64,000 bases of DNA from Alkalicella caledoniensis. Lineage in GTDB: Bacteria > Bacillota > Proteinivoracia > Proteinivoracales > Proteinivoracaceae. Positions within the stretch are counted from its first letter, which is position 1; every line of letters begins with the position of its first letter. The DNA is taken from the NCBI RefSeq assembly GCF_014467015.1, contig NZ_CP058559.1:2914001-2978000 (forward strand). The letters run 5' to 3'. The notes beneath the pieces were generated by a model. That model saw only the letters and a list, made by a program, of their open reading frames with translations. It did not search any database and had not been told where the DNA came from. A program made the translations under genes and the position numbers. Below, in pieces: positions 15,334-35,760 of this stretch.

Positions 15334-16908
15334 ATGTATAATAACAGTCTTTTGGAGATACTTCTGGATTCCCTAGAAATTATTGCTAAGATTACCGGAG
15401 GGTATGCTACATTAACTGATAAATACGGGTACAGAATTAAAACAATTGATTCTGCTGGGAATGTTAAAGTAGAGCTTGAGGGAAGTTACTACGATTCTGC
15501 AGCTGAGGCATACCTAAAGAAAAAAGCTATATCGGGTGTTTCAAGTATTGAAGATGGTGCACAAGCTTGGTGTATTCCTATTAATGACTATGTATTATGT
15601 AGCAGTAATATAGAAATAGTTAAAAATAATAATAGGTTGAAGGAATCTTTGATTCAGTCTCTACCCTTTATTTCTCGGGTGGCTGGTGGAGAAGCGGTGG
15701 TCTTTGATTCAGAGGGAGTTAGAATAGCGACAGTGAGTTCTAAGGGTGAAATAAAAGAAGATTACTTAGGGAAAGCAAGCAAAGATGCAAAAGAGGCCAT
15801 GGAGAAACAAAGACCAATTATTGGTGGCTCGAATTATGTCAGTGGTGCTAGTGCAGTGCGGATTCCCATAACTAAGGAGTTTGGTTTTGGATTTAATAAC
15901 GAAGATACTACTATTGCAAGTCAAATACTAATTAACGAGGTAAAAAAACACCAGACAGCGAAGTATTCGCTAGACGATATAATTGGTGAATCAGCATCAC
16001 TAGTTAAAGCAAAGAATATTGTAAAAATTACGGGGAAATCAAGTTCTAGTGTTCTAATTTTTGGCGAAACTGGAACTGGGAAAGAACTATTCGCTCAATC
16101 GGTACACAACCTAAGTGACAGAAGTTCAAAACCATTCGTGGCAATCAATTGTGCTGCAATTCCTCCAAATCTAATGGAAAGTAACTTTTTCGGATATGAA
16201 GGAGGAGCTTTTACTGGTGCGAGGAAAGATGGATCCCCTGGTGTATTTGAGCAAGCAAATGGAGGGACTATTTTTCTGGACGAAATAAGCGAAATGGATC
16301 TAGATTTACAATCGAAAATACTTAGGGTCCTCCAAGAACGTGAAGTTAAACGTCTAGGCTCAAATAAAGTAATTCCTTTAGATATAAGGGTTGTATCTGC
16401 TACTAATAAAGACTTAGAAGAAATGGCTCGGAGCGGTAAGTTTAGGCAGGATTTATTTTATAGGCTCAATGTAGTTGATATAAATTTGCCTGCTCTAAGG
16501 GAGATAAGATCAGACATCCGATTGATAGTTAAAAATGCTATTTATCAAATGAATAGAAGTTTTGGAAAGTTTGTTGAGGATATAGATGAAGAAGCTTTAT
16601 CTTATATGACTAGCTATCATTGGCCAGGTAATGTTAGAGAATTAATTAACTGTATAGAAAGGATTTTTAATGTAATCGGAAGTAATAGAATAATAACAAA
16701 AGAATTTTTGCCTAATAAGCTTTTAGATAATCAAATTACAGTGGGCGAGCAGGGAGACTTAAGTACCATGCTAGCTAAATACGAAAAAAGAATAATTGAA
16801 AATAGCTTGAAGGATAACAATGGTGTTAAAGCCAAAGTTGCTAGACAGCTGAATATAAGCAATACAACTTTATGGCGTAGGATGAAAGAACTTGAAATTG
16901 ATAACTAA
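15334..16908 (+). CDS. Sigma-54-dependent transcriptional activator of nicotinate catabolism
   Basis: A 524-aa enhancer-binding protein. The N-terminal 200 residues hold two tandem copies of a small sensor domain: LEIIAKITGGYATLTDKYG (13-31) and LPFISRVAGGEAVVFDSEG (110-128), each followed by a strand-rich half ending near residues 90 and 188. I do not recognise this domain. The AAA+ core has Walker A GETGTGKE (244-251), the sigma-54 contact loop GAFTGA (291-296) and Walker B FLDE (314-317); a Fis-type helix-turn-helix (VARQLNISNTTLWRRM) ends the protein. The gene lies directly upstream of ndhF, divergent sites ATTTCA-N4-TGAAAT and -24/-12 promoters occur before both catabolic operons, and no other activator is in the island, so it very likely switches on the pathway. 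The inducer is inferred to be nicotinate or an intermediate. Confidence 0.9.
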   Translation: MYNNSLLEILLDSLEIIAKITGGYATLTDKYGYRIKTIDSAGNVKVELEGSYYDSAAEAYLKKKAISGVSSIEDGAQAWCIPINDYVLCSSNIEIVKNNNRLKESLIQSLPFISRVAGGEAVVFDSEGVRIATVSSKGEIKEDYLGKASKDAKEAMEKQRPIIGGSNYVSGASAVRIPITKEFGFGFNNEDTTIASQILINEVKKHQTAKYSLDDIIGESASLVKAKNIVKITGKSSSSVLIFGETGTGKELFAQSVHNLSDRSSKPFVAINCAAIPPNLMESNFFGYEGGAFTGARKDGSPGVFEQANGGTIFLDEISEMDLDLQSKILRVLQEREVKRLGSNKVIPLDIRVVSATNKDLEEMARSGKFRQDLFYRLNVVDINLPALREIRSDIRLIVKNAIYQMNRSFGKFVEDIDEEALSYMTSYHWPGNVRELINCIERIFNVIGSNRIITKEFLPNKLLDNQITVGEQGDLSTMLAKYEKRIIENSLKDNNGVKAKVARQLNISNTTLWRRMKELEIDN

Positions 16909-16910
16909 CT

Positions 16911-16926
16911 ATTTCAGATTTAAAAT
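16911..16926. promoter_or_regulatory. Imperfect activator site upstream of ndhF
   Basis: ATTTCAGATTTAAAAT, one mismatch from the palindrome ATTTCA-N4-TGAAAT. It lies immediately after the activator stop codon and 133 bases upstream of the -24 element. Confidence 0.5.
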
Positions 16927-16929
16927 ACT

Positions 16930-16945
16930 ATTTCACTTTTGAAAT
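16930..16945. promoter_or_regulatory. Activator-binding palindrome upstream of ndhF
   Basis: ATTTCACTTTTGAAAT, a perfect 6+6 palindrome with 4-base spacer, 114 bases upstream of the -24 element. The same palindrome occurs twice before hgd. Confidence 0.7.
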
Positions 16946-16976
16946 ACATCGAAACAGCTTTGCCATAGGCACTTAC

Positions 16977-17012
16977 AATAGAGACCTTTTCAATTTTGAA
17001 AAAGTCTCTATT
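16977..17012. terminator. Hairpin with an embedded activator-like site
   Basis: AATAGAGAC/GTCTCTATT flanks TTTTCAATTTTGAAAA (16987-17002), giving one long hairpin. It could end the activator transcript although no long T-run follows. The core TTTCA-N4-TGAAA matches the activator site, so it may serve both purposes. Confidence 0.55.
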
Positions 17013-17043
17013 ATTATAATAGCCATATACCTGGTTTTTAAAA

Positions 17044-17059
17044 TGGCACAGTAATTGCA
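17044..17059 (+). promoter_or_regulatory. Sigma-54 (-24/-12) promoter of the ndh operon
   Basis: TGGCACAGTAATTGCA matches the sigma-54 consensus TGGCAC-N5-TTGCA exactly, with the GG and GC 10 bases apart. It lies 51 bases before the ndhF start. Confidence 0.9.
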
Positions 17060-17109
17060 TTATAAATGATGACAGCGCTGATAGATAAAAAAAGTTAGGA
17101 GGGATGGAT

Positions 17110-17991
17110 ATGAAACAATTTAGCTACTATGCTCCAACTGATTTAGAAGGAGTACTAAAGATTTTGGCACATGGAGAAGACACATACTTCATTGCTGGCG
17201 GAACCGATATTATGATCCAGATGAGGAAAAAGTGGGTTCAACCTAGAAAACTAATTGATTTAAAGCAGGTAAGTGAAATAAATTACATCCGAGAAGATGG
17301 TGACGTAATTAGAGTAGGGGCAACAACCACATTTACTCAGCTCGAAAGATCAGACTTAATTAAGAGATACGCAAAGGTTTTAGCAAACTCTGCTGCAGAA
17401 GTAGGGTCCCCACAGATACGTAACTTAGGAACCGTAGGAGGTAATATAGCTAACTCGTCTGCCGCAGCAGACTCTGTTACTGCGCTAATGGCTCTCGATG
17501 CTAAACTTAAGCTAGTTAGCCTAAGTGGTGAGAGAGTAGTGGAACTAAAAGAATTTTATATAGGAAATGGAAATACCAGCCTTAAACCTGATGAAGTTAT
17601 AACTGAAGTGTTCTTCAATAAACGTGAGTATTCTGAGTTCAAAAAATTAGGTAGAAGAAAAGCTTTAGCTATTGTTGTTTTAAGTGTGGGCGCAGCTTTT
17701 AAGTTAAACATGAATGAAAACACGTTTTCCAATGTTAAAATCTCCCTTGGTGCAGTAGCAAGACATCCAATGAGGGCTTATGAAGCAGAGCAAATACTTG
17801 AAGGGCAGGAAATAAGCTTCCTAAAATTAGAAGAATGCATCGAGAAAATCTCTGAAATAGCAGAAGCAAGTGTTACAAACTCTCCGTTTAAGCTTTTAGC
17901 TCCTTATAAAAAAGAAAGTATCAAAGGTGTAGCAAGACAAGTACTAGAAAATCTATACAACGAACAAGTTAAAGCAAATAAGGGGGTATAG
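17110..17991 (+). CDS. ndhF: Nicotinate dehydrogenase, FAD subunit
   Basis: A 293-aa FAD-binding subunit of the xanthine dehydrogenase family. FIAGGTDIM near residue 30 and LGTVGGNIANSSAAADS (about 109-125) are the flavin-contact loops of this family; the length is normal. It passes electrons from the iron-sulfur subunit to NADP+ in the hydroxylation of nicotinate to 6-hydroxynicotinate. The start is ATG 17110, 7 bases after AGGAGGG; the ATG at 17104 is too close. It is the first gene behind the sigma-54 promoter, 2 bases before ndhS. The specific substrate rests on the neighbouring split molybdenum subunits and the rest of the pathway. Confidence 0.92.
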   Translation: MKQFSYYAPTDLEGVLKILAHGEDTYFIAGGTDIMIQMRKKWVQPRKLIDLKQVSEINYIREDGDVIRVGATTTFTQLERSDLIKRYAKVLANSAAEVGSPQIRNLGTVGGNIANSSAAADSVTALMALDAKLKLVSLSGERVVELKEFYIGNGNTSLKPDEVITEVFFNKREYSEFKKLGRRKALAIVVLSVGAAFKLNMNENTFSNVKISLGAVARHPMRAYEAEQILEGQEISFLKLEECIEKISEIAEASVTNSPFKLLAPYKKESIKGVARQVLENLYNEQVKANKGV

Positions 17992-17993
17992 TC

Positions 17994-18458
17994 ATGGAAA
18001 AAGTAAAGATCGTATTTAACCTAAACTACAAAGATGTCGAGATTGAGATATATCCTAACACAAGACTAATAGATATGTTGAGGGAACAGTTTAACCTCAC
18101 AAGTGTTAAAGAGGGCTGCTCTGAAGGAGAGTGTGGCGCCTGTACTGTAGTCCTTGACGATGAACCTGTTACGTCTTGTGTAGTGCTAGCACCTCAAGTT
18201 CATGGCAGATCTGTTCTTACCCTTGAGGGATTGTCCGAAAATGGAGAACTTGATAAACTACAGCAGGCATTCATAGATGCTGGAGCTGTTCAATGTGGAT
18301 TTTGTACCCCAGGAATGATTTTATCTGGTAAAGCGCTTTTGATGAGAAAACCAAACCCAACTGAGGAAGAAATTAAACAATCAATTTCAGGTAATCTATG
18401 TAGATGTACTGGGTATGCAAAGATTGTTGATGCCATTCAAATAGCTTCACAAAAGTAA
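17994..18458 (+). CDS. ndhS: Nicotinate dehydrogenase, [2Fe-2S] subunit
   Basis: A 154-aa iron-sulfur subunit carrying two [2Fe-2S] clusters. The plant-ferredoxin-type cluster is held by Cys42, 47, 50 and 62 (GCSEGECGACTVV, SC), the second by Cys101, 104, 136 and 138 (CGFC, CRCTGY). It relays electrons from the molybdenum centre to the FAD subunit. It starts 2 bases after ndhF with GGGGG upstream and is followed by ndhL after 16 bases. Confidence 0.95.
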   Translation: MEKVKIVFNLNYKDVEIEIYPNTRLIDMLREQFNLTSVKEGCSEGECGACTVVLDDEPVTSCVVLAPQVHGRSVLTLEGLSENGELDKLQQAFIDAGAVQCGFCTPGMILSGKALLMRKPNPTEEEIKQSISGNLCRCTGYAKIVDAIQIASQK

Positions 18459-18474
18459 AGAGAGGAGGAGAAGG

Positions 18475-19761
18475 GTGTTGGAAGAAAAAAATTACAGTGT
18501 TATAGGAAAAAGTGTAACGAAAAAAGATGTGTTAGCTAAAGTAACAGGAAAAGCTCAATATGCGGCCGATATTACATTAGACAATATGTTATTTGGTAAG
18601 GTGTTAAGAAGCACTGTTCCTGCTGCAATAGTAAAGAAAATAGATACTTCTAAAGCAAAGGAATTGCCAGGTGTAGTTTCTGTTCTGACCGCTAAGGACA
18701 TTCCGGGAGAAAATAGTGTAGGAATTATTATTAAGGATGAGCCAATTCTAGTGACCAATAAAATTAGAAGAATTGGAGATCCATTGGCGATTATAGCTGC
18801 AGAGACCATGGAAATAGCTGAAGAAGCTTTAGGACTGATTAAAGTAGATTTAGAAGAACTACCTGTCGTATCAAACATTGAACAGGCTCTTGATAAAAAC
18901 TCCCCTGTAATACACGGAGGAGAAAGTAACATTTTATCTACCAAGTTAATGGTTAAAGGGGATGTAGATAATGCATTCAAGGAGTGTGATATTATAATTG
19001 AAAATTCCTATAAAACTAGTATGATATCACATATGTTTATAGAGCCAGAAGCTGCAGTAGCAAAGTATGAAGATGGAAAAATAACCGTATGGAGCTCAAC
19101 ACAAAACACTCACTTTGACAGGGATGAAGTGGCGAGGATGCTAAACATGCCACAGAACAGAGTGCGTTGCATATGTGCTGAAACAGGCGGTGGCTTTGGT
19201 GGTAAGCTAGATATTTCTTTACAATGCTATTCTGCTTTATTAGCTTACTACTCTAAAAGACCAGTAAAGATGGTTAACACTCGTGAAGAATCAACAACTG
19301 TGTCGTCAAAACGCCATCCAACCCTCATGAAGTATAAGACAGGAGCAAAAAAAGATGGAAAACTTCATGCTATGGAAGTTGAGATTTTCCAGGACACAGG
19401 TGCGTACTCTTCATATGGGCTAGGGGTAATTACTAGAAGTGTTGTACATAGTACAGGTCCCTATGAGGTGCCTAATTTACGCGTAAAATCTACAATGGTA
19501 TATACAAATAACCCTATGGCAGGCGCAATGAGAGGATTTGGTGTTCCTCAAGTAGCAATAGCACACGAGGGTCAAATGGATGCACTTGCAAAAGAATTAA
19601 ATATGACTCCAGTGGAGATTAGGTTAATAAATGCCCTTAAAGTAGGATCGACTACAGGAACTAAACAAATTCTTGATAATAGCGTAGGCATCACAGAGAC
19701 AATAATTAAAGCAGTAGAAAAAAGCAAAGAAGTAATCTCGCAGGAAAGGAGGAGCTTATAA
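18475..19761 (+). CDS. ndhL: Nicotinate dehydrogenase, large molybdopterin subunit
   Basis: A 428-aa protein equal to the N-terminal half of a usual 750-800-aa molybdenum hydroxylase subunit. It has the a/b hammerhead domain (about 10-130), the cofactor loop GGGFGGK (about 240) and AMRGFGVPQ (about 345), and ends shortly after. The remaining domain is encoded by ndhM, which overlaps by one base. This split is the known hallmark of the selenium-containing nicotinate dehydrogenase of E. barkeri, and no other family member there was reported to have it. GTG 18475 or TTG 18478 may be the start; both follow GAGGAGGAG. The split is real, not a frameshift: ndhM has its own AGGAGG site. Confidence 0.92.
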   Translation: MLEEKNYSVIGKSVTKKDVLAKVTGKAQYAADITLDNMLFGKVLRSTVPAAIVKKIDTSKAKELPGVVSVLTAKDIPGENSVGIIIKDEPILVTNKIRRIGDPLAIIAAETMEIAEEALGLIKVDLEELPVVSNIEQALDKNSPVIHGGESNILSTKLMVKGDVDNAFKECDIIIENSYKTSMISHMFIEPEAAVAKYEDGKITVWSSTQNTHFDRDEVARMLNMPQNRVRCICAETGGGFGGKLDISLQCYSALLAYYSKRPVKMVNTREESTTVSSKRHPTLMKYKTGAKKDGKLHAMEVEIFQDTGAYSSYGLGVITRSVVHSTGPYEVPNLRVKSTMVYTNNPMAGAMRGFGVPQVAIAHEGQMDALAKELNMTPVEIRLINALKVGSTTGTKQILDNSVGITETIIKAVEKSKEVISQERRSL

Positions 19762-20747
19762 TGAAAAAAAGAGGCGTAGGAATGGGTTGTATGTGGTATG
19801 GGGTTGGTAATACTGGGCTACCTAATCCAGCAGCAGCTTTTGTTGAGGTTCATAGTGATGGTTCAGTTACAGTGCTAACAGGTGCTGCAGACATAGGACA
19901 GGGATCTGACACTGTCATGTGCCAGATTGTGGCAGAAGCACTAGGGGTCCATTATGAAGACGTTAGTGTATTATCTGCTGACAGTGGTGTTACCCCAGAG
20001 TCTGGCGCATCATCTGCCAGTAGACAAACATATATTTCAGGAAATGCTTGCTTAAATGCAGCAAATATGGCTAAAGAAACCATTGTAAAAGTAGCCGCAG
20101 AATTATTGGGTACTACAGCTTCTAACGTAGAATTGCGGGATAGGAGAGCCTTTGACAAAAATAACACCGACAACCACATCCTATATTCCAAAGTATTAAT
20201 GACCATGAAGCAAAAGGGTATTATCGCTGTAGGAAGTGGTAGCTTTAATCCAGATACCACAGGGTTAAATCCAGAAAACCTAGAAGGCAGTCCATATGGA
20301 ACTTACGCCTTTGCAACTCAGATTGTTGAGGTTGAAGTGGACACCGAAACTGGAGAAGTTGATGTTATAAAAATCATCGCAGCCCATGATGTAGGTACAG
20401 CCATCAACAAACAAAATGTTGAGGGGCAAATTGAAGGTGGAGCGTTGATGGGAGTTGGATACGCATTACTTGAGGAAATAGAGCTAGATAACGGTAAAAT
20501 AAAAAATCCAAATTTTACAAGTTACTTAATCAATACAGCAATGGACACACCCAAAATATATCCAATTATTGTTGAAGAACATAGCGAAACTGGACCCTTT
20601 GGAGCAAAAGGAGTCGGTGAACCTACATTGATCCCTACTGCACCGGCAATCTTAAGTGCAATAGAAGATGCCATAGGTATTAGATTTAATGAAGTTCCTG
20701 TAACTCCTGAAAAAATTATTAAGTCTCTAAAAAATGGAGGTAAGTAA
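19761..20747 (+). CDS. ndhM: Nicotinate dehydrogenase, medium molybdopterin subunit
   Basis: A 328-aa protein equal to the C-terminal half of a molybdenum hydroxylase large subunit. GAADIGQGSDTVM (about 33-45) is the cofactor-binding Q-loop and GAKGVGEPTLIPTAPA (about 280-295) holds the catalytic Glu. It joins NdhL to make the active site; in E. barkeri the enzyme carries labile, non-selenocysteine selenium, and no in-frame UGA is seen here either. It starts at ATG 19761 overlapping the ndhL stop, with GGAGGAG upstream. Confidence 0.92.
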   Translation: MKKRGVGMGCMWYGVGNTGLPNPAAAFVEVHSDGSVTVLTGAADIGQGSDTVMCQIVAEALGVHYEDVSVLSADSGVTPESGASSASRQTYISGNACLNAANMAKETIVKVAAELLGTTASNVELRDRRAFDKNNTDNHILYSKVLMTMKQKGIIAVGSGSFNPDTTGLNPENLEGSPYGTYAFATQIVEVEVDTETGEVDVIKIIAAHDVGTAINKQNVEGQIEGGALMGVGYALLEEIELDNGKIKNPNFTSYLINTAMDTPKIYPIIVEEHSETGPFGAKGVGEPTLIPTAPAILSAIEDAIGIRFNEVPVTPEKIIKSLKNGGK

Positions 20748-20749
20748 AA

Positions 20750-21781
20750 ATGTCAAATACTAATGAAAAAGTTAGTTTCTTTAAAAGAAAGAACATAGAG
20801 TTCTCTGTTAAAAGGTACTTAATTGACACTTTAAGCTTCATGGCACTTGGTCTTTTTTCTTCACTAATAATCGGTAGTATAATGAATACAATCGGAAGTA
20901 AACTTGGGATACCATTTTTATCAGAAACAGTATGGCCCATTGCTAACAGTATGACTGGACCAGCTATAGCAGTTGCAGTAGCCTTTGGTCTTCAGGCTCC
21001 GCCTTTAGTAATGTTCTCAGCAGTAATAGTGGGAGCTGCTGGAGCGGCAAACGGTGGAGGACCTGTAGGTGCTTTGCTGGCAACGTTAGTTGGTGTGGAG
21101 TTCGGTAAAATGGTTTCAAAGGAAACAAAAGTGGATATAATCGTAACACCAGCTGTAACAATACTAGTTGGCTGCTTAGTTGCAAGCTTTGTTGCACCAG
21201 CTGTTGGAGCATTTATGACAAAGTTTGGTGAGTTAATTATGTATGCAACAGAGCTACACCCTGTTCCAATGGGTAGTTTAGTTGCTGTACTAATGGGAAT
21301 TGCCTTAACACTACCTATAAGTAGTGCTGCAATAGCAATAATGTTAAGCTTAAGTGGCATAGCTGCAGGAGCTGCCGTTGTTGGATGCTGTTGTCAGATG
21401 GTAGGTTTTGCTGTGCAAAGTTATAAAGATAATGGTTGGGGTGGAGTTTTTGCCCAAGGAGTTGGAACATCAATGCTCCAAGTACCAAATATCGTTAAAA
21501 AACCAATTATTTGGTTACCGCCAATTATAGCATCTGCTATACTTGGTCCAATTTCCGCTAGAGTATTACAAATGGAAAACACACCAATGGGTGCAGGTAT
21601 GGGAACCAGTGGTTTAGTAGGTCAGTTCGAAGCTATTTCAGCAATGGATGGTGGAGCTGGTATGTATCTATCCATATTTCTAATGCACATAGCACTACCA
21701 GCAATACTAGTGTATGTAATTTCTAAAGTCATGTATTCTAAACAAATACTTAAACCAGGTGATATGAAGTTAGACCTATAA
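20750..21781 (+). CDS. PTS-EIIC-like membrane transporter, candidate nicotinate permease
   Basis: A 343-aa membrane protein with about nine hydrophobic segments, of the stand-alone PTS IIC-like family (PTS_EIIC_2 type): rich in small residues, with GAAGAANGGGPVGALLATLVG, ELHPVPMGSLVAVLMGIALTLP and GGAGMYLSIFLMHIALP. There is no phosphorylatable IIA or IIB domain or gene nearby, so it is unlikely to work as a sugar PTS. It starts 2 bases after ndhM in the same sigma-54 operon, which suggests that it imports nicotinate or exports a by-product. The substrate is inferred from position only. Confidence 0.75.
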   Translation: MSNTNEKVSFFKRKNIEFSVKRYLIDTLSFMALGLFSSLIIGSIMNTIGSKLGIPFLSETVWPIANSMTGPAIAVAVAFGLQAPPLVMFSAVIVGAAGAANGGGPVGALLATLVGVEFGKMVSKETKVDIIVTPAVTILVGCLVASFVAPAVGAFMTKFGELIMYATELHPVPMGSLVAVLMGIALTLPISSAAIAIMLSLSGIAAGAAVVGCCCQMVGFAVQSYKDNGWGGVFAQGVGTSMLQVPNIVKKPIIWLPPIIASAILGPISARVLQMENTPMGAGMGTSGLVGQFEAISAMDGGAGMYLSIFLMHIALPAILVYVISKVMYSKQILKPGDMKLDL

Positions 21782-21819
21782 AAAAGTATTGTAACATCTT
21801 ATAAAAAACTAAATATCAA

Positions 21820-22058
21820 GCGTGGGGCTTAGCCCTTCCACTTTAGGGAGGAGTCTTCAGAGCTGTGAATCGGGGTAATCCATAAGCCGAGGAGCCGAGA
21901 AGAGGACAATGAGTTAAAGTGGTACTGCAGCGTTCAAGGATTGAAAATGGCAGGGGAGGACGATTAGGTGACTAATCACTATCAAATAAAGGTATTCTCA
22001 TAGATACCTTTATTTGAATATGGTGAAAACTCCTCCAAATTTAACGGGGGAGTTTTTT
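21820..22058 (+). ncRNA. Structured RNA leader, riboswitch candidate, with terminator
   Basis: This gene-free stretch folds extensively: GGGC/GCCC hairpin (21825-21835); an 8-bp long-range helix CCACTTTA (21838-21845) with TAAAGTGG (21915-21922) enclosing UCGG/CCGA (21870-21890); CTGC/GCAG (21925-21953) with inner UUCAA/UUGAA; GATTAG-GTGA-CTAATC with a GNRA loop (21962-21977); a 12-bp hairpin (21983-22016); then a terminator (22026-22058). GGAGGAGT at 21847-21854 is complementary to ACTCCTCC (22029-22036), the left arm of the terminator, so two exclusive folds are possible. It precedes a probable molybdate-type importer and a MocA-like gene, so a Moco- or metal-sensing RNA is plausible. I cannot match it to a known class from memory. 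Confidence 0.6.
22026..22058 (+). terminator. Intrinsic terminator at the end of the RNA leader
   Basis: AAAACTCCTCC pairs with GGGGGAGTTTT, followed by TT, about 105 bases upstream of the importer operon start. Confidence 0.8.
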
Positions 22059-22162
22059 ATTTCGAAGGAAATTATTTCATTTAGTCTTTTTCTCTTAGTA
22101 AGGATTATTGTTCTAGTTATCATATACAGGAGACATAGCATGTTCCTGATGGAGGTGTGACA

Positions 22163-22690
22163 GTGAATATTTTCCTAACAGGTGGAAAGCAAGTTGGCAA
22201 ATCTACAATAATAAATTCAGTAACAAATGAACTGGGTATAGGGGAGAAAACCATTGGGTTTAGGACATTGTTGAATCCTAGTACAGAAATAAGGACGTTT
22301 TATATAGAACCAATTAATATTTCACTATTAGAAAACCCATACAAAGACATAGGTTACTTTAAGGACGGTACAAAAACAGGGATTACATCTACCTTTGAAG
22401 ATTATGGAGTTAAATTACTAGAAAAATGTTTATCAGAGAGATCCTCAATAGTCCTCTTAGATGAAGTTGGTTTTTTTGAGGAAGGAGCACGAAATTTCCA
22501 AAAAAAGTTACATGAACTTCTAGACTCTCCTAAGACGGTCCTAGGTGTAATTAAAGAACATACATCCGAATTCTTGGACTCCATAAGATTTCGAGAAGAT
22601 GTGAGGATTTTACATGTAACACTAGTTAACAGAGAAGAAATTAAAATAGAACTTATAAAAATAATTAAAAATTTAAAACTAGAAAATTAG
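22163..22690 (+). CDS. THEP1-like nucleoside-triphosphatase
   Basis: A 175-aa P-loop protein similar to the NTPase_1/THEP1 family. Walker A is FLTGGKQVGKSTII (residues 3-16) and Walker B SIVLLDEVGFFEEGARNF (about 91-108), the latter with the family's typical acidic/aromatic pattern. It is preferred to start at GTG 22163, 7 bases after GGAGG; GTG 22157 touches that site. It leads the importer operon, 13 bases before the lipoprotein start. Its role with a metal-oxyanion importer or cofactor synthesis is unclear; related genes occur beside molybdenum-hydroxylase systems in clostridia, but I state this as inference. Confidence 0.75.
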   Translation: MNIFLTGGKQVGKSTIINSVTNELGIGEKTIGFRTLLNPSTEIRTFYIEPINISLLENPYKDIGYFKDGTKTGITSTFEDYGVKLLEKCLSERSSIVLLDEVGFFEEGARNFQKKLHELLDSPKTVLGVIKEHTSEFLDSIRFREDVRILHVTLVNREEIKIELIKIIKNLKLEN

Positions 22691-22703
22691 AGGAGTGAAT
22701 AAA

Positions 22704-23783
22704 ATGATTAAATCCAATAAAACAATGATACTTGTGATACTTTTACTTACATCAATAATTATGTCAGGGTGCTTGGGCTCACAGCAAAACCCCTCTGACA
22801 CAATAACAGAGACTAATAGAACTGTTATAGATCAAAAAGGTAGAGAAGTTGAGATTCCCAAAGAAATTAACAGCGTTGTGTCCACCTATGGCCCAGCCAC
22901 TAATTTGATTTTCGCAGTAGGGGCACAACACAAACTTGTGGCGGTGCCTGATAAAACACATTCTAACAAGTTTTTTACCAGTGTTTATCCAGAGGTGCTG
23001 AAATTAGATGAAATTGGCAGCAGAGGCGAAGGGTTAAATATCGAAGCAGTTATAGCATCAAACCCTGATGTTGTTATATTATTTCCCGGGAATGATAATG
23101 AAACAATAATAGAACAGCTTGCTACACAGAAGATTCCAGCTGTTGTAATTAACCCAGAAAGTATAGAAGAGATTTTAGAATGTATCGAACTACTTGGGGA
23201 TGTTTTAGGGAGAGAAGCACAAGCTAAAGAGTTAATTGCCTATTACATTGAGAGTCTAGAGCTTGTGGAGAGTAGGGTGTCTAACATATCCTTAGACCAA
23301 CGTAAAAAGGTATACTTAGCGGGATCTAATGGATTATTGTCAACAACATCTTCTGATATGTATCAACACCATCTGATTGAACAAGCAGGTGGAATTAACG
23401 TTGCAAGTTCCTTAAATGGAGGTTGGAACCAAGTTTCAGCAGAACAGTTAATAAAATTTAACCCCGATTTTATTACTTCCGTACAATATAGCAAAGGGAA
23501 TGTAGCACAGGAAATATCAGACAATAAACAGTTTAGTAATATAGAAGCAATAAAAAATAAACAGGTTTATATTTTCCCCTCAAATTTAGGGGGATGGGAT
23601 ATGCCAGAGCCTAGGTCCATATTAGGGATCCTGTGGTTATCAAATATGCTATATCCTGAAGAATTTGCTGACATGGACATATTAAAAGAAATAGAGGAAT
23701 TTCATCTAAATTTCTATGGCAAGAATTTCACAGAACTTGGGGGAATTTTAAATGATAATGAAATTCTGGAGAAAATTAAATAG
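22704..23783 (+). CDS. ABC importer substrate-binding lipoprotein (FecCD/BtuF type)
   Basis: A 359-aa lipoprotein with signal peptide and lipobox (IIMSGC, Cys23). The class III binding-protein fold is seen from DQKGREVEIPKEINSVVS, LNIEAVIASNPDVVILF and the long linker helix after residue 160. Such proteins bind haem, siderophores, cobalamin or, in MolA of Haemophilus, molybdate/tungstate. Placement between ndhFSLM and a MocA-like gene favours molybdate. The start is ATG 22704, 8 bases after AGGAG. Its 3' end overlaps the permease gene by 32 bases. Confidence 0.88.
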   Translation: MIKSNKTMILVILLLTSIIMSGCLGSQQNPSDTITETNRTVIDQKGREVEIPKEINSVVSTYGPATNLIFAVGAQHKLVAVPDKTHSNKFFTSVYPEVLKLDEIGSRGEGLNIEAVIASNPDVVILFPGNDNETIIEQLATQKIPAVVINPESIEEILECIELLGDVLGREAQAKELIAYYIESLELVESRVSNISLDQRKKVYLAGSNGLLSTTSSDMYQHHLIEQAGGINVASSLNGGWNQVSAEQLIKFNPDFITSVQYSKGNVAQEISDNKQFSNIEAIKNKQVYIFPSNLGGWDMPEPRSILGILWLSNMLYPEEFADMDILKEIEEFHLNFYGKNFTELGGILNDNEILEKIK

Positions 23784-24792
23784 TAATCTTAAAAACAAAA
23801 AAAGTACCATATTTATTTTTTTCATAGTAACTATATTCATTTCTTTATTTTCTGGACGTTATAGCGTAAAGGTTGATGAAATATTGACTTTGTTTCAAGA
23901 GCTTCCTAATTTTCTATTAGGAAATGAAATAACAAGTAATCAGAGTTTAGTATTTTACTATATCAGACTCCCAAGAATTATTTTAGCTTTAGTAACTGGC
24001 GTAGTACTAGGTGGAACAGGTGTTGTTTTTCAAGGGGTCTTTAAAAACCCCTTGGCCTCCCCAGATGTGTTAGGAGTCACAGCAGGGTGTACTGTTGGTG
24101 CTGCTATAGCCATACTACTCCCCTTTGAAGGCAATCTAATTATACAAGTAACAGCATTTGTGTTTGGTATAGTTACAGTTTTTATTACATATGGTCTTGC
24201 AAAAGCTTCAAAAAACAAAAACATAGTGATGCTAGTGCTAGCTGGCATGGTTGTATCCGCATTCTTTTCAGCTATGCTGTCACTAATTAAATACATGGCA
24301 GATCCATTTGAACAACTTCCAGCTATTGTTTTTTGGACAATGGGAGGATTCCATAGAGCTTCATGGCCTAGGATTCAAACGCTACTTATAACAGTTCTAC
24401 CGTGTATTATTTTTTTAAAATCTACATCTTGGAAGTTGAACATACTGTGCTTGGGTGATGAAGATGCACAGGGATTAGGTATAAATGTAAAGAGACTGCG
24501 CCTTATAATACTGAGTATATCTGCATTTATGGTTGCAAGCTGTATTAGTATTACTGGAACCGTTGGATGGGTGGCTTTAGTCGTACCCCACATTACTAGG
24601 TTATATGTTGGAGCAGATCACAGTAGGCTACTTCCGATGAGTATGTTGGTTGGCGGAGGTTTCACAGTACTAATGGATACTATAGCAAGATCACTTACAA
24701 CTTCCGAGATCCCAATCAGTATACTAACAGCAGCCATTGGTGCACCAGTCTTTGCTTACTTACTTATAGTTAAAAGCACTGTGGAGGGATAA
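23752..24792 (+). CDS. ABC importer permease, FecCD type
   Basis: A 346-aa permease with about ten membrane segments of the FecCD/BtuC/MolB family: YIRLPRIILALVTGVVLGGTG, FKNPLASPDVLGVTAGC and GTVGWVALVVPHITRLYVG are the conserved loops. It is the membrane channel for the binding protein before it and the ATPase after it. ATG 23752 starts within the preceding gene, so translation is coupled. Confidence 0.9.
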   Translation: MIMKFWRKLNSNLKNKKSTIFIFFIVTIFISLFSGRYSVKVDEILTLFQELPNFLLGNEITSNQSLVFYYIRLPRIILALVTGVVLGGTGVVFQGVFKNPLASPDVLGVTAGCTVGAAIAILLPFEGNLIIQVTAFVFGIVTVFITYGLAKASKNKNIVMLVLAGMVVSAFFSAMLSLIKYMADPFEQLPAIVFWTMGGFHRASWPRIQTLLITVLPCIIFLKSTSWKLNILCLGDEDAQGLGINVKRLRLIILSISAFMVASCISITGTVGWVALVVPHITRLYVGADHSRLLPMSMLVGGGFTVLMDTIARSLTTSEIPISILTAAIGAPVFAYLLIVKSTVEG

Positions 24793-24794
24793 TT

Positions 24795-25562
24795 ATGACT
24801 ATAAAAATTACAGATATCCAATTTAACTATAATCAGAGGCGTGTCCTAAAAGGATGTTCGTTAATTATTGAAAGAGGTAACATATACGGTCTTTTAGGTG
24901 CTAATGGAGCGGGAAAAACAACCCTAATGAAAATTATAAAGGGACTGCTTAAACCGCAAAATGGAGATGTTGAAATTGATGGAAGAAACACTTTAGCAAT
25001 GACCATAGAGGAAATATCCCAAAAGATTGCTACTGTTTCCCAAGACACTAATCAAGTATTTCCTTTTTCTGTACTTGATATGGTAACTATGGGGAGGAAT
25101 CCTCACATCAAGCTTTTCGGTAAGCCAATAAAGGAAGATTACATAAAGGCAGAGGAGTCTTTAGCATTGGTAGGAGGGCTTTACTTAAAAGAGAGAATTT
25201 TTAATGAGCTAAGTGGCGGGGAGAGGCAATTAGTTATGATAGCTAGAGCATTAGCACAACAAACTCCATACATATTATTTGATGAACCTACTGCTCACTT
25301 GGATTTTACAAATCAGCATGTAATTTTAAAAGTTATAAGGGATGTTGTAAAGAAAAATAATTTAGGGGTCTTAATTTGCATGCACGACCCTAATCTAGTG
25401 TACCAGTATTGCTCACACTCAGTGATGATACATGAGGGTCAAGTTCTTAGTAAAGGTTTAACAAAAGAAGTTTTTAATGAAGGCAATCTATCTTACCTCT
25501 ATGGAACATCCACTAAAATCAGTCGAATAGACAATGGACTAATCTATGTTTCAGCTAAGTAA
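24795..25562 (+). CDS. ABC importer ATP-binding protein
   Basis: A 255-aa ATPase of the FepC/BtuD/MolC type. Walker A is GANGAGKTT (about 34-42), signature LSGGERQL (about 138), Walker B ILFDEPTAHLD (about 158-168), and switch His in CMHDPN. It starts 2 bases after the permease stop and ends 23 bases before the MocA-like gene. Confidence 0.92.
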   Translation: MTIKITDIQFNYNQRRVLKGCSLIIERGNIYGLLGANGAGKTTLMKIIKGLLKPQNGDVEIDGRNTLAMTIEEISQKIATVSQDTNQVFPFSVLDMVTMGRNPHIKLFGKPIKEDYIKAEESLALVGGLYLKERIFNELSGGERQLVMIARALAQQTPYILFDEPTAHLDFTNQHVILKVIRDVVKKNNLGVLICMHDPNLVYQYCSHSVMIHEGQVLSKGLTKEVFNEGNLSYLYGTSTKISRIDNGLIYVSAK

Positions 25563-25585
25563 TCTTACCTTAGGAGAGAAAAAGT

Positions 25586-26152
25586 ATGATAACAGCTATT
25601 ATAATGGCATCAGGTTACTCGAGAAGAATGAAACAAAACAAACTACTATTAAAGATATTCGGTAAACCTATGGTGGAACATGTTATCGATATAGCAAAAA
25701 AAGGATCTCTAGATGAGATCTTATTGATATATAAGGACCAGGAAGTTAAAGAGATAGCGAGTAAAAATAATGTTAATTCATTGTATAACAAATATGCATA
25801 TCTAGGACAAAGTGAGGCCATAAAATTAGGAGTCAGCAACTCCCATGAAGACACTGAGGGATATATGTTTTTAACATCGGACCAACCACTGCTGACAGAA
25901 GACATACTAAATAGACTAATCCACAAATTTAATCAAAATAAGGACTGCATAATAGTGCCTTTATATGGGGACAAGCCTGGCAGTCCTTGTATATTTCCAA
26001 AGAAATTCAAGAATCAACTACTTAGCCTTTCAGGAGATACTGGAGGCAGAAGAATAATCAAAGGCAATACACAGCATGTACTATATGTGAATATAGAAGA
26101 GCATGCAGGACATGACATTGATAAATGGGAGGACTATATAGGAATTTTTTAA
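25586..26152 (+). CDS. mocA: MocA-like molybdenum cofactor nucleotidyltransferase
   Basis: A 188-aa MobA/MocA-type nucleotidyltransferase. The N-terminal loop IIMASGYSRRMKQNKLLLKIFGKP is the NTP-binding signature, and TSDQPLLT the metal-binding DxP motif. MocA-type enzymes join CMP to molybdopterin to make the MCD cofactor used by xanthine dehydrogenase-family enzymes such as nicotinate dehydrogenase; some relatives (YgfJ) act in selenium-dependent hydroxylase maturation. It is co-directional with the importer genes and directly precedes the second sigma-54 operon. Confidence 0.85.
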   Translation: MITAIIMASGYSRRMKQNKLLLKIFGKPMVEHVIDIAKKGSLDEILLIYKDQEVKEIASKNNVNSLYNKYAYLGQSEAIKLGVSNSHEDTEGYMFLTSDQPLLTEDILNRLIHKFNQNKDCIIVPLYGDKPGSPCIFPKKFKNQLLSLSGDTGGRRIIKGNTQHVLYVNIEEHAGHDIDKWEDYIGIF

Positions 26153-26174
26153 AGCTTTCAAATATGACAAGGAT

Positions 26175-26190
26175 ATTTCATTTTTGAAAT
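26175..26190. promoter_or_regulatory. Activator-binding palindrome 1 upstream of hgd
   Basis: ATTTCATTTTTGAAAT, a perfect copy of the site before ndhF, 117 bases upstream of the -24 element. Confidence 0.7.
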
Positions 26191-26240
26191 CAAGAAACAA
26201 CCCTAAGGAGAGTGTTTTGTGGTTATTGCGTTAAAAAACC

Positions 26241-26256
26241 ATTTCAATAATGAAAT
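26241..26256. promoter_or_regulatory. Activator-binding palindrome 2 upstream of hgd
   Basis: ATTTCAATAATGAAAT, the same palindrome 51 bases upstream of the -24 element. Confidence 0.7.
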
Positions 26257-26306
26257 AAACTAGAATAACTTCAAGCTAATCCTAGGCATATATGGGACAT
26301 TTATAT

Positions 26307-26322
26307 TGGCATAGTATTTGCA
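26307..26322 (+). promoter_or_regulatory. Sigma-54 (-24/-12) promoter of the hgd-to-DUF1185 operon
   Basis: TGGCATAGTATTTGCA fits the -24/-12 consensus with correct spacing, 41 bases before the hgd start. Confidence 0.9.
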
Positions 26323-26362: not shown

Positions 26363-27262
26363 ATGAGGATAGGTTTTATAGGACTTGGAGCAATGGGTAA
26401 AGGGATGGCCACGAATTTAGTGAAAAGTGTCAATCAATTGGTTGTTTATGATATAAACATAGCAGTTGTCAACGAACTAAAAGAACTAGGTGCTGAAGTG
26501 GCTAAATCTCCTAAAGACTTGGCTGAAAAAGTAGATGTTATTATGACATCTTTACCAAATTCACAAATAGTTCAAATGACTATGCTAGGTGAAAATGGTG
26601 TCTTAGAAGGGGCAAAGCCAGGAAGCGTTATTGTTGATTTCAGCAGTATAACGCCAAAGACAATTCAACACATCGCTAGGGAAGCAAACAAAAAAGATAT
26701 AGAAGTTCTAGACGCTCCAGTCAGTGGCGGTCAAATAGGGGCAGAAAAAGGAACTTTAACCATAATGGTTGGAGGAAAGGAAGAGGTATTAAACAAAATA
26801 CTTCCATTATTAAACTGCGTTGGAACTTCTATCAAACACGTAGGAGATGTGGGCGCTGGCGATACAATTAAACTAGTAAACAACTTACTACTTGGAGTAA
26901 ATATGGCTGCAGTTTCAGAAGCGTTAACTTTAGGTGTTAAAGCTGGCCTAAAGCCAGAAATTTTATATGATGTTATCTCTCAAAGCTCAGGAAATTCATA
27001 TGCACTAAAAGCAAAGTATGAAAAATTCATAGCTAAGGGGAACTTTGAGCCTGGATTTATGATTGATTTGCAATATAAAGATTTACAATTAGCTATCGAT
27101 ACTGCAAAGGACCTACAATTTCCACTACTTATAGGAAATTTAGCACAACAATTGTATGAAATTGCTAGGGCAGAAGGTAATGGCAATAAGGATATATCTG
27201 CAATAATAAATACATTTGAAAATTGGGGTCAAGTAAAAGTAAGGGAAAGGGAGGCAGAATAA
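26363..27262 (+). CDS. hgd: 2-(hydroxymethyl)glutarate dehydrogenase
   Basis: A 299-aa member of the 3-hydroxyisobutyrate/phosphogluconate dehydrogenase family. The NAD-binding loop is GFIGLGAMGKGMATNL (residues 4-19), the substrate motif DAPVSGGQIGAEKGTL (about 119-134), and the catalytic Lys lies in GDTIKLVNNLL (about 172). It reduces (S)-2-formylglutarate to (S)-2-hydroxymethylglutarate with NADH. It is the first gene behind the second sigma-54 promoter, with TAATG overlap to the next gene. Alone it could be another beta-hydroxyacid dehydrogenase; the cluster fixes the role. Confidence 0.9.
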   Translation: MRIGFIGLGAMGKGMATNLVKSVNQLVVYDINIAVVNELKELGAEVAKSPKDLAEKVDVIMTSLPNSQIVQMTMLGENGVLEGAKPGSVIVDFSSITPKTIQHIAREANKKDIEVLDAPVSGGQIGAEKGTLTIMVGGKEEVLNKILPLLNCVGTSIKHVGDVGAGDTIKLVNNLLLGVNMAAVSEALTLGVKAGLKPEILYDVISQSSGNSYALKAKYEKFIAKGNFEPGFMIDLQYKDLQLAIDTAKDLQFPLLIGNLAQQLYEIARAEGNGNKDISAIINTFENWGQVKVREREAE

Positions 27263-28668
27263 TGGAGTTAAAAAGGTTGATCGAAGAAAAACTCCCTCTA
27301 ACTATAGGGGAAACAATTGAAATCGCACACAGTGAGGGTGTAAGGGTAGTAGATGTTGTTCTAGCAGAAGCTGAACTAACAACAGGAAAAAGTAAAGAAG
27401 AGATTCTACAACAATCATACGAACAGTTTGCACACAATTTAAAAGCTGTGGAAATCGGGTTAGAAACAGGTCACAGTTTGCTTTTAGGCAGCACAGGGGC
27501 ACAACTACATAAAATTGAGGGAAATGCTTTGTTTGAAGATGGTTTTATTGACAAAGTATTAAAATATACAATTGCAGCCCAAGTAGGAAATCATGAAATA
27601 GGGTTAAATCCTTGTGCGGGTACTGGAGACTCTTGCCCCTATACAGGTTTTATAAAGGCATTAGAAGAAACTGGTGGAAGTAAGGAAGAAGTATGTGAAA
27701 CAACTGCTCTAATCTTAAAGATAGGATCAATGTTTAGAGTGGGAAAGGTTACCACAGGGTGTAATATGGAAGGTTTTGGAGCAGGAGCAGCGGCCATAGC
27801 CGCTGCAATGGTGCATGTGAAATGCGGAACACCCAAGGATATGGAGAGAGCTATGGTACTATCCATATCACCTACCATCGCAGTTCCTTGTACACCAAGG
27901 GTTATGGTTCCAGCCCTTTGCGCAACCCATATCGGGGGGGCCATATTAATTGGATCCCTTGCAGCGAGTTTAACAACTAAAACAGATATAGAAGTAAACG
28001 TTCCTATAGATGTAATGCTTGCCATGGCTACTGAAATACATCCTGTATCTGCAAAGCATATAGTTCCGATGGTCAATGACTATATGAGACCTTTCTTTAA
28101 GACAAAGCCTCAAGTGGAAAAACTCATAGACCAGGAAATAAAAGACCTAGAGCAAGAGAACATTAGCAAAACATTACAGAGGTCTAAAGAGGTGGCCAAA
28201 AAGCTAGCTCATGGTGCCAAACCTATAAACCAAACATTGGGAGTAGCTGTAGTTGGGGGTAGTTCACAAGCAGTGGGATCACCCACAAATACAGGCAGAA
28301 TCGCACACTATCTCTCAAAAGGACAAATCAAAAAAGTTAAAATCGAATTGTATGGTGAGCTCTTCGACAGAAGGGGTATCAATATACCAGGAACACTAAT
28401 GGGGGCAGTTTTCGGTGCTTCCACAAATGATTACAAAATGTATAGACAAGTTATGGAATCTGTAGAACGACTGGGTATAGAAGTGGAAATAATCAGAGCA
28501 GAAGAACATCAAGTACAACGGGTGACTATTGAGACTAATGAGGGAACTTTTATGGTAGATGCATTAAATAGAGGTGGAGGACGATTAGTACTAAGAAAAG
28601 CCACACCATCTGTCCAAAGGGCTGCAGAGATAGCCGAAGAGCTATCCATTGTTCTTGCTGAAGAATAG
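27262..28668 (+). CDS. hmd: 2-(hydroxymethyl)glutarate dehydratase, serine dehydratase-like
   Basis: A 468-aa protein related to the alpha domain of [4Fe-4S] L-serine dehydratases, with a C-terminal regulatory-like part. Cluster-type cysteines lie in NPCAGTGDSCPYTG, TTGCNMEGFGAGA and VPCTPRVMVPALCATH; the glycine-rich helices are typical. It is predicted to dehydrate 2-hydroxymethylglutarate to 2-methyleneglutarate, as proposed for E. barkeri. The start is ATG 27262, overlapping the hgd stop (TAATG). An upstream in-frame start exists but lies in hgd. Confidence 0.87.
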   Translation: MELKRLIEEKLPLTIGETIEIAHSEGVRVVDVVLAEAELTTGKSKEEILQQSYEQFAHNLKAVEIGLETGHSLLLGSTGAQLHKIEGNALFEDGFIDKVLKYTIAAQVGNHEIGLNPCAGTGDSCPYTGFIKALEETGGSKEEVCETTALILKIGSMFRVGKVTTGCNMEGFGAGAAAIAAAMVHVKCGTPKDMERAMVLSISPTIAVPCTPRVMVPALCATHIGGAILIGSLAASLTTKTDIEVNVPIDVMLAMATEIHPVSAKHIVPMVNDYMRPFFKTKPQVEKLIDQEIKDLEQENISKTLQRSKEVAKKLAHGAKPINQTLGVAVVGGSSQAVGSPTNTGRIAHYLSKGQIKKVKIELYGELFDRRGINIPGTLMGAVFGASTNDYKMYRQVMESVERLGIEVEIIRAEEHQVQRVTIETNEGTFMVDALNRGGGRLVLRKATPSVQRAAEIAEELSIVLAEE

Positions 28669-28680
28669 GGGGGCTGGAAC

Positions 28681-29898
28681 ATGAATATTTTAGAGAAAAT
28701 TATCGCTCAAAAAGCAGGGGTTAAAACTGTTAAAGTAGGCGATGAACTGACTGTAAAAGTGGACTTGGCAATAGCCCACGATGTGACAGCACCCATGGCA
28801 ATTAAGCAATTTCGTTCAATAAATGTAGATAAGGTATTTGACAAGGAACGCGTGGTATTTGTAATGGACCACTGCGTTCCATGCGCAACAGTGGATTCTA
28901 GGCAACAACAAAAATATATCAAGGAATTTGCACAAGAGTTTGGAACTAGACTTTTCGACAAATCTGAAGGTGTAATTCATCAAGTAATAAGTGATGAGAA
29001 ACTATATAAATCAGGAGATTTAATAGTTGGCGCAGACTCACATACTTGTACAGCAGGAGCTTATGGAGCAATAGCATTGGGTGTAGGGTCCACAGATTTA
29101 GCAGCAGTAATGGCTTTAGGAACAATAGACATGGAAGTTCCTGTAACTCACCTTATAAGAATAGAAGGTAGCTTAAGCAAAGGGGTATATGCTAAAGATA
29201 TAATTCTACATGTAATAGGGATGTTTGGAACAAACGGCTTTACAGATAGGGGAGTAATTTTATCAGGTAGTACAATACTGGGTTTATCTGACGATGAGAA
29301 GATGACAATTTCAAATATGATGATTGAGATGGGAGCTATGATTGGCTATATAGATCAAAGCAAAGAATTTGATGCTAAGTATATTGGGAAAGTATCCAAG
29401 GAAACAGTCATTCTTGCAGAAGATATACAGCCAGTGGCAGCATGCCCTTCTTCACCTGACAACATAAAGGTAATTGAAAACATTGAAGGGGTTAAGATAA
29501 ATCAGGCAGTTATCGGAAGCTGCACTAATGGTCGAATTTCTGACATGATTATTGCTGCAGAGGTCTTAAAGGATAGAAAAGTAAGTGAAAATGTAAACTT
29601 AGTGGTATGTCCTGCATCTAAAAAAGTGTTGACTGAAATGGAACACCAAGGATTAACTAAAATTCTTAGGGATGCTGGAGCCATTGTCACAAACCCCGGT
29701 TGTGGTCCATGTTATGGAGCCCACCAAGGTCTATTGAATCATGATGATATAGCAATAAGTACAACGAATAGGAATTTCCCCGGGAGAATGGGACATAAGG
29801 ACGCTCAAATATATTTAGCATCTCCTCGAGTAGTGGCAGAAAGTGCAGTCCAGGGACATATTGTGAGACCTGGGACAGTAATTCCATTGGAGGTATAG
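28681..29898 (+). CDS. dmdA: 2,3-dimethylmalate dehydratase, large subunit
   Basis: A 405-aa aconitase/LeuC-type subunit. Its cluster ligands are in VGSCTNGRISD (about 280) and NPGCGPCYGAHQG (about 338), and the active-site stretch VGADSHTCTAGAYGAIALGVGSTD is complete. With DmdB it hydrates dimethylmaleate to (2R,3S)-2,3-dimethylmalate. It lies 12 bases after hmd and 2 bases before dmdB. LeuC-like enzymes act on other substrates too; the neighbours make this assignment firm. Confidence 0.9.
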   Translation: MNILEKIIAQKAGVKTVKVGDELTVKVDLAIAHDVTAPMAIKQFRSINVDKVFDKERVVFVMDHCVPCATVDSRQQQKYIKEFAQEFGTRLFDKSEGVIHQVISDEKLYKSGDLIVGADSHTCTAGAYGAIALGVGSTDLAAVMALGTIDMEVPVTHLIRIEGSLSKGVYAKDIILHVIGMFGTNGFTDRGVILSGSTILGLSDDEKMTISNMMIEMGAMIGYIDQSKEFDAKYIGKVSKETVILAEDIQPVAACPSSPDNIKVIENIEGVKINQAVIGSCTNGRISDMIIAAEVLKDRKVSENVNLVVCPASKKVLTEMEHQGLTKILRDAGAIVTNPGCGPCYGAHQGLLNHDDIAISTTNRNFPGRMGHKDAQIYLASPRVVAESAVQGHIVRPGTVIPLEV

Positions 29899-29900
29899 TT

Positions 29901-30425
29901 ATGAAAAAGTTTACAGGAAAAGTATTCAGTTTAGATGACAACGTGGATACAGATCAGATATTACCGGGATATGCCATGTCTTATCCTGAAAATGATCTAA
30001 AAAATTATACCCTTAAGGGAAGTATTATTCCGGAGTTCCCTCAACTTGTTAAAGGTGGAGACATTATAGTTGCTGGAGAAAACTTTGGCTGTGGTTCTAG
30101 CAGGGAGCAAGCTCCTTTTGCCTTAAAGGAATCAGGGGTATCAGTTATAATCGCTAAATCTTTCGCAAGGATATTTAGGCGTAATGCCATTAACATAGGC
30201 TTACCAGTAATAACTTGTGACCAAGTCCATCAAATCCAAGAAGATATGGATAAAGAAGACCTGTTTGAAGTAGACATCAAATTCCTTACAGTTAAAAATT
30301 TATCAAAAAACAAAACTTATTCACTAAACGGTTTGACAAATGTGACATTGGAAACCCTGCAAGCAGGTGGACTTATGAACAAGGTGATTAAAAAGCTAGA
30401 AGAGAAGGGGTGTCATAATGGCTAA
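29901..30425 (+). CDS. dmdB: 2,3-dimethylmalate dehydratase, small subunit
   Basis: A 174-aa LeuD-type swivel domain: [16 protein letters not shown] near the N-terminus, the catalytic loop [18 protein letters not shown] (about 57-74) and [16 protein letters not shown]. It completes the DmdAB active site. Its 3' end overlaps mgm by 8 bases. Confidence 0.92.
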
Positions 30426-32277: not shown

Positions 32278-32281
32278 TTAA

Positions 32282-33430: not shown

Positions 33431-33439
33431 GGTTAAGCC

Positions 33440-34864: not shown

Positions 34865-34868
34865 ACCA

Positions 34869-35735
34869 ATGAAAAAAACAACTAAATTAAGAGAACTATT
34901 GAAAGTAAAGGAAATATTAGTAGCACCTGGAGCCCATGATGCTTTAACAGCAAGGGTTATTGAAAAGTCAGGTTTTAAGACTGTGTATATGACTGGTTAT
35001 GGCCAAGCTGCCAGTGCCTTAGGAAAACCAGACATTGGACTTTTAAGTATGACAGAAATGCTAGATAGGGCACGCAAAATGGTTTCAGCTGTGGATGTCC
35101 CAGTAATTGCTGATGCTGATACAGGTTTTGGGAATGCAATAACAGTAATGAGAACTGTAGAAGAATATGAAATGGCAGGGGTAGCTGGAATCCAACTAGA
35201 AGACCAGGTGGCACCGAAGAGATGTGGCCATATGCTAGGAAGAAAAGTAGTTTCATTAGATGAAATGGTTGGTAAAATTAAAGCAGCTAAAGAGGCGCGT
35301 AAAGACCCTGATTTTGTGATTATTGCCCGTACCGATGCAAGGACAGTTCATGGAATTGAAGAAGCCGTTAAAAGGGCAAAGGCATACGAAGAAGCTGGAG
35401 CTGATGTGATATTTGTTGAATCTTTAGAAACCTTAGAAGAAATGCAATTAATCCATGAAACACTAACTGTTCCTACACTTGCAAACATGGTTGAAGGTGG
35501 AAGAACACCACTATTGACAAATGACGAACTTGAAGAAATAGGTTATGGTTTAGTAATATATCCAACAGCATCTACCTATGTTTACGCTAAGGCAATGCTT
35601 GATTTAATGAATAAATTAAAGACCGACAAAACAACTGCTAATTACACTGATCAAATGATTACCTTTCCTGAGTTCAATAAGTTAGTAGGTTTAGAGGACT
35701 ACGCTAAGTTAGAAGATAAGTTCGTAAGGGAGTAA
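34869..35735 (+). CDS. dml: 2,3-dimethylmalate lyase
   Basis: A 288-aa protein of the isocitrate lyase/PEP mutase family. GAHDALTARVIEKSGFKTVY at the start, PVIADADTGFGNAI with Mg-binding Asp, EDQVAPKRCGHM with the catalytic KRCGH loop, and IIARTDA are all present. It splits (2R,3S)-dimethylmalate to propionate and pyruvate, the end of the pathway. Its length is normal and it is 4 bases after the MutL/GlmL-like gene. Confidence 0.92.
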   Translation: MKKTTKLRELLKVKEILVAPGAHDALTARVIEKSGFKTVYMTGYGQAASALGKPDIGLLSMTEMLDRARKMVSAVDVPVIADADTGFGNAITVMRTVEEYEMAGVAGIQLEDQVAPKRCGHMLGRKVVSLDEMVGKIKAAKEARKDPDFVIIARTDARTVHGIEEAVKRAKAYEEAGADVIFVESLETLEEMQLIHETLTVPTLANMVEGGRTPLLTNDELEEIGYGLVIYPTASTYVYAKAMLDLMNKLKTDKTTANYTDQMITFPEFNKLVGLEDYAKLEDKFVRE

Positions 35736-35760
35736 GAGAATCATTTAAGGGGGATGGAAA

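Follow-up and report, generated by a model that had tools for sequence, protein, structure and literature searches.

A window of 64,000 nt of Alkalicella caledoniensis (NZ_CP058559.1, assembly GCF_014467015.1; positions 2,914,001-2,978,000 of the forward strand) was analysed, in which a gene for an enhancer-binding protein (EBP) lies upstream of two gene clusters, beginning with ndhF and hgd, that are predicted to serve anaerobic nicotinate fermentation. Both clusters are preceded by a -24/-12 promoter of the sigma-54 type and by short palindromes. The following features, numbered within the window, make up the EBP gene and the two promoter regions:

15334-16908, + strand: EBP gene, 524 aa (Pfam, orthologue alignment and predicted structure)
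16911-16926, no strand: ndh array palindrome 1, ATTTCAGATTTAAAAT, 1 mismatch
16930-16945, no strand: ndh array palindrome 2, ATTTCACTTTTGAAAT, perfect, 19 bp past site 1
16987-17002, no strand: ndh array palindrome 3, TTTTCAATTTTGAAAA, 2 mismatches, capping a hairpin 3' of the EBP gene
17044-17059, + strand: predicted sigma-54 promoter of ndhF, TGGCACAGTAATTGCA, exact TGGCAY-N5-TTGCW
26155-26170, no strand: hgd array palindrome 1, weak, CTTTCAAATATGACAA, 3 mismatches, 20 bp before 26175
26175-26190, no strand: hgd array palindrome 2, ATTTCATTTTTGAAAT, perfect
26241-26256, no strand: hgd array palindrome 3, ATTTCAATAATGAAAT, perfect
26307-26322, + strand: predicted sigma-54 promoter of hgd, TGGCATAGTATTTGCA, exact TGGCAY-N5-TTGCW

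The activator gene and the two promoter arrays

The first-pass annotation had listed ATTTCA-N4-TGAAAT as perfect at 16930, 26175 and 26241 and as imperfect at 16911 and 16987. All five copies were recovered, the last two with 1 and 2 mismatches, as were the -24/-12 promoters that it placed before ndhF and hgd, both of them exact. The weak site at 26155 had been overlooked; with it, the hgd promoter acquires the three-site layout of ndhF, that is, a tandem pair about 19-20 bp apart and a third site 57-66 bp further. The type of site is shared between the two operons, as had been proposed, but a three-site array built on the core TTKCA-N4-TGMAA describes it better than shared palindromes do.

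Within the window, palindromes at 2 mismatches were not enriched over shuffled sequences (13 vs. 10.4 expected), while four with at most 1 mismatch were found in the 64 kb against 0.5 expected, all of them at the ndhF and hgd promoters. As there is no window-wide excess at 2 mismatches, the claim rests on the near-perfect copies and on their position. Pattern searches of the whole 3.7 Mb genome yielded five perfect palindromes, three of which are those at 16930, 26175 and 26241; the other two were rejected as coding-sequence background, with no -24/-12 promoter within the surrounding 10 kb. Moreover, 38 strict -24/-12 matches were found in the genome (3 for the reversed control), and only those of ndhF and hgd were preceded, within 300 bp, by a palindrome with no more than 1 mismatch, which amounts to 4 such palindromes vs. 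0.12 expected (Poisson P ~9e-6). The strict match at 51583 lies within an open reading frame (ORF), has no palindrome nearby and was discarded.

The adjoining gene had been annotated as encoding an EBP, with which the Pfam assignments agree: the protein has a sigma-54 AAA+ domain (residues 216-383; PF00158, E 1e-68), whose GETGTGKE motif is unchanged in the orthologues, and a Fis-type helix-turn-helix (HTH; residues 481-520; PF02954, 41.4 bits). Furthermore, rpoN, the gene for sigma-54, is present in the same genome (PF04552, 201.8 bits). The N-terminal part (residues ~1-195) appears to be a tandem PAS/GAF-like sensor. No Pfam family matched the first 200 residues, and fold prediction returned two similar alpha/beta halves (pLDDT, the predicted local distance difference test, of 75), for which Foldseek retrieved tandem PAS, PAS-GAF, Cache and DhaR sensor structures with TM-scores of ~0.3, so that the sensor assignment is a lead and not a proof. 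The best NCBIfam match of the EBP was PrdR (NF041552, over residues 149-519), but it reached 385.6 bits against a cut-off of 795 and left the N-terminal sensor unmatched.

Activator, sites and pathway across genomes

Orthologues, defined by alignment over the full EBP length, were sought in 398 genomes from the phylum, the window's own included, and in Sedimentibacter acidaminivorans. They were found in 11 of the 398 and in S. acidaminivorans, making 12 genomes and 11 besides that of the window, while class-level samples of 3 and 20 genomes, drawn for more orthologues, gave nothing new. The 2-methyleneglutarate mutase occurred in 13 of the 398 genomes; EBP and mutase were found together in 10, the EBP alone in 1 and the mutase alone in 3 (Fisher P ~1e-16). 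In the 12 genomes, the EBP gene was located in or beside pathway clusters, and the first operon next to it varied (ndh, hgd, ena or methyltransferase). The contigs of genome G058 are split, its EBP gene lying near a contig end and its pathway genes on other contigs, each behind the same type of array.

In 12 of 12 genomes, TTKCA-N4-TGMAA sites and, after them, a -24/-12 element were present downstream of the EBP. The usual layout was a pair of sites 18-21 bp apart with a third site 53-83 bp further on (partial exceptions being G058 and G207/G300), and the sites recurred even in orthologous clusters of genomes with 53-56% G+C. With a hold-out site model, from which the tested genome was left out, a cluster promoter site ranked top in 10 of 11 test sets; it did not do so in G004, where each site carries 2 mismatches. 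A perfect-palindrome search of the whole G058 genome gave four copies, three of them at nicotinate promoters. One of these three revealed a third regulon promoter, on a short contig, where three sites and a -24/-12 element precede enamidase and 6-hydroxynicotinate reductase genes. The scan of relatives that the first-pass annotation had suggested placed site and activator together beside the nicotinate pathway in 12 genomes. Perfect palindromes without a nearby -24/-12 element in G300, G053 and G063 were set aside. In G053 and G063, a lone near-perfect palindrome also precedes the EBP gene (L053:8795-8810 and L051:18183-18198), the latter between the EBP gene and a divergent symporter gene, and autoregulation is possible in these cases.

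Three pathway genomes (G370, G389 and G241) were without the window-type EBP, and no comparable promoter site was found in the 152 kb examined in them. Orthologous clusters lacking both the palindrome and the activator, which had been named in advance as evidence against the pairing, do therefore exist; but site and activator are gone together, and another sigma-54 activator is found there. This other EBP carries PrpR_N and PAS domains by Pfam in G370 and G389, and in G241 it was recognized by a similar sequence start:

L108:4680-6602, L110:7019-8983 and L107:1415-3349: PrpR_N-PAS-type EBP genes beside clusters without the window-type EBP

These proteins resemble the window-type EBP in being sigma-54 activators that adjoin the same pathway, with the three clusters having -24/-12 promoters of their own, and they differ in their unrelated sensor and in promoters without matching sites. 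Words similar to GTTTCA/TGAAAC were noticed in those promoters. The joint absence of site and activator supports the pairing, yet shows that it is not universal for the pathway. Sigma-54 control appears to be common to both lineages, with the activator and its site changing together.

Interpretation and alternative explanations

The reading put forward at first, of two sigma-54 operons with one activator and one type of site, is the best supported, considering the co-occurrence beside the pathway in 12 genomes and the presence of rpoN. The 15334-16908 protein would be a sigma-54 activator of the one-component type that serves nicotinate fermentation specifically, through the two arrays, to which we assign a probability of about 0.88, and it very probably binds the short palindromes. 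Several points weigh against this. The genomes share ancestry, so that the counts of co-occurrence of EBP and mutase are not independent, and the site model was made by eye from these same promoters and fits them partly by construction, which the hold-out limits. Moreover, the model of the sensor structure is of moderate confidence with low TM-scores, and in three genomes the pathway is under another EBP. The sites of G004 all have 2 mismatches, and neither sites nor a -24/-12 match precede its hgd. In G120, the EBP, ndh, hnr and ena are present, but the mutase was not matched.

Among the alternatives, the sites might serve another regulator, either a different EBP or a sigma-70-type repressor, with the adjacent EBP acting elsewhere. 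The genome has at least 15 EBP-like matches, and the pairing of EBP and site is drawn only from linkage; however, across the 12 genomes the sites are always found either between the EBP gene and the gene next to it or in front of pathway genes. Where this EBP is missing, in three pathway genomes, the clusters have no such sites either, and among the strict -24/-12 promoters of the window's genome none but those of ndhF and hgd has a near-perfect palindrome. This explanation is therefore regarded as unlikely.

Slightly less credit still is given to the palindromes being RNA hairpins or parts of terminators instead of protein-binding sites. In the window, the third site does fall within a stable hairpin 3' of the EBP gene (-15.7 kcal/mol, z -6.7), and it is likewise placed in a stable hairpin in G207, G063, S. 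acidaminivorans and G053. The third site of hgd, however, folds by itself at only -2.4 kcal/mol, and the 18-21 bp spacing of the pair and the placement before -24/-12 elements recur. Furthermore, all 15 departures from T-A at positions 4/13 (9 G-A, 3 A-A and 3 T-C) are unpaired, with 0 compensatory changes in 40 sites, so that it is the sequence which is kept and not the pairing. This is what would be expected of duplex DNA read by a dimeric protein rather than of RNA pairing. Hairpins nesting the third palindrome were located at 16975-17022 of the window and at L049:7028-7080, L051:16170-16215 and L026:11645-11690. Operator and possible terminator overlap in this arrangement, and the hairpin may end the EBP transcript and carry the site at once.

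Chance matches in AT-rich DNA, despite the lack of excess over shuffles at 2 mismatches in the window and a whole-genome background at up to 1 mismatch of 40 vs. 45 for the reversed control, are practically dismissed by the position beside strict -24/-12 promoters, the recurrence in all orthologous clusters, those of the 53-56% G+C genomes included, and the repeated three-site geometry.

Regarding the dedicated activator, the sites, promoters, gene content, rpoN and evolutionary linkage were observed, and DNA binding, oligomer formation, the inducer and induction are inferences. The N-terminal tandem PAS/GAF-like domain would sense an intracellular compound of the pathway, most likely nicotinate or 6-hydroxynicotinate. 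The Fis-type HTH, as part of a dimeric protein, would bind TTKCA-N4-TGMAA at the tandem pair and the third site, and from these arrays the AAA+ ring would reach RNA polymerase-sigma-54 at -24/-12 and open the ndhF and hgd promoters. In this way, the hydroxylation of nicotinate would be induced jointly with the later steps that lead to propionate and pyruvate.

Similar arrangements are described in the reconstruction of sigma-54 regulons in 57 Clostridiales, comprising 39 EBP groups (Nie et al. 2019, PMC6615313). Fermentation regulons such as those of PrdR (proline) and OrdR (ornithine) likewise have a Fis-type HTH EBP next to the operon that it targets, and a fermentation pathway is controlled from a -24/-12 promoter with several sites upstream of it. 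In contrast, the site type common to 15 of those groups is TGT-N10-12-ACA, as opposed to TTKCA-N4-TGMAA here. No nicotinate regulon is among the 39 tabulated groups, and 'nicotin' is absent from the main text of that paper (PMC6615313). No described regulator of anaerobic nicotinate fermentation was found in the open-licence literature either, so the initial impression of a new site/regulator pair holds within these sources, and the pair appears to represent a real, so far undescribed regulon.

Pathway genes and possibly recruited methyltransferases

The genes downstream of the EBP were assigned as follows:

17104-21781, + strand: ndhF, ndhS, ndhL and ndhM (nicotinate dehydrogenase) and a PTS_EIIC_2-family membrane protein, by sequence matches
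22157-26152, + strand: NTPase, FecCD-type ABC transporter (binding protein, permease and ATPase) and MocA-like cytidylyltransferase
within 26363-39881, + strand (first part of the hgd cluster): hgd, serine-dehydratase-like ORF, dmdA, dmdB, 2-methyleneglutarate mutase, mii and GlmL-like gene
within 26363-39881, + strand (rest of the hgd cluster): dimethylmalate lyase-like gene, enamidase, 6-hydroxynicotinate reductase-like gene and two further conserved ORFs

The genes at 22157-26152 share a common direction only, which does not imply operon membership. The set comprises nicotinate dehydrogenase, 6-hydroxynicotinate reductase, enamidase, hgd, dehydratase, mutase, isomerase, hydratase and lyase, and is thus predicted from sequence to be an essentially complete nicotinate fermentation set. 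The assignments of hnr (6-hydroxynicotinate reductase) and of the dehydratase were made by gene context, the serine-dehydratase-like ORF being the probable 2-(hydroxymethyl)glutarate dehydratase. The best PDB matches were nicotinate dehydrogenase 3hrd for ndhL, 2-hydroxymethylglutarate dehydrogenase 3cky for hgd, 2vun for the enamidase and 3-methylitaconate isomerase 3g7k for mii. These four solved enzymes come from Eubacterium barkeri and belong to its nicotinate fermentation genes.

The PTS_EIIC_2-family membrane protein (20750-21781) has no other phosphotransferase system (PTS) parts nearby, and five further genomes (L026, L051, L053, L055 and L057) have homologues within or close to their nicotinate operons; it is a candidate nicotinate transporter. 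A dCache-domain chemoreceptor is encoded directly 3' of the hgd gene cluster (39912-41942), and chemotaxis to nicotinate is possible.

MttB-superfamily genes, together with an SSS symporter, belong to the regulon in two lineages, those of G318 and G058; the part that was compared is 59% identical:

L058:6978-12007, L056:16152-16721 and L143:5081-5605: segments of the nicotinate regulon with MttB-superfamily methyltransferase genes

In G318, the array and the -24/-12 element are followed by genes for a corrinoid protein, MttB, the SSS symporter and methyltetrahydrofolate methyltransferase, and then by the ndh genes, while G058 has one MttB that comes after the EBP with its sites and another that comes after ena, hnr and two ORFs. 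The MttB frame is open, with no in-frame TAG. Moreover, this MttB clade (E <= 1e-120) was found in 4 of the 398 genomes, all 4 with the EBP (Fisher P 3e-7). The obvious candidate substrate is trigonelline (N-methylnicotinate), which one open-access paper mentions among possible but so far unknown substrates of such methyl metabolism (PMC10805028). A recruited corrinoid MttB system might demethylate trigonelline and feed nicotinate fermentation in some anaerobes, a tentative proposal that we place a little short of even odds. The MttB cluster upstream of the EBP in G053 was not counted, since its MttB is only 27% identical and of another clade, and since a racemase-like gene is part of the cluster. 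No palindromes were found at the own promoters of the MttB copies in G058 (C42), G367 and G117 (C3). In G058 and G117, MttB copies without the palindromes lie beside xanthine-dehydrogenase-type molybdenum hydroxylase genes (L121:1561-12329 and L123:960-13980) and possibly act on other N-methyl heterocycles.

Overall, anaerobic nicotinate fermentation would gain a concrete, testable regulator and operator, with sigma-54 control apparently retained though the type of activator varies between lineages. The operator could be used to find members of the regulon without prior annotation, as with the enamidase operon of G058, and the regulon points to a possible trigonelline demethylase.

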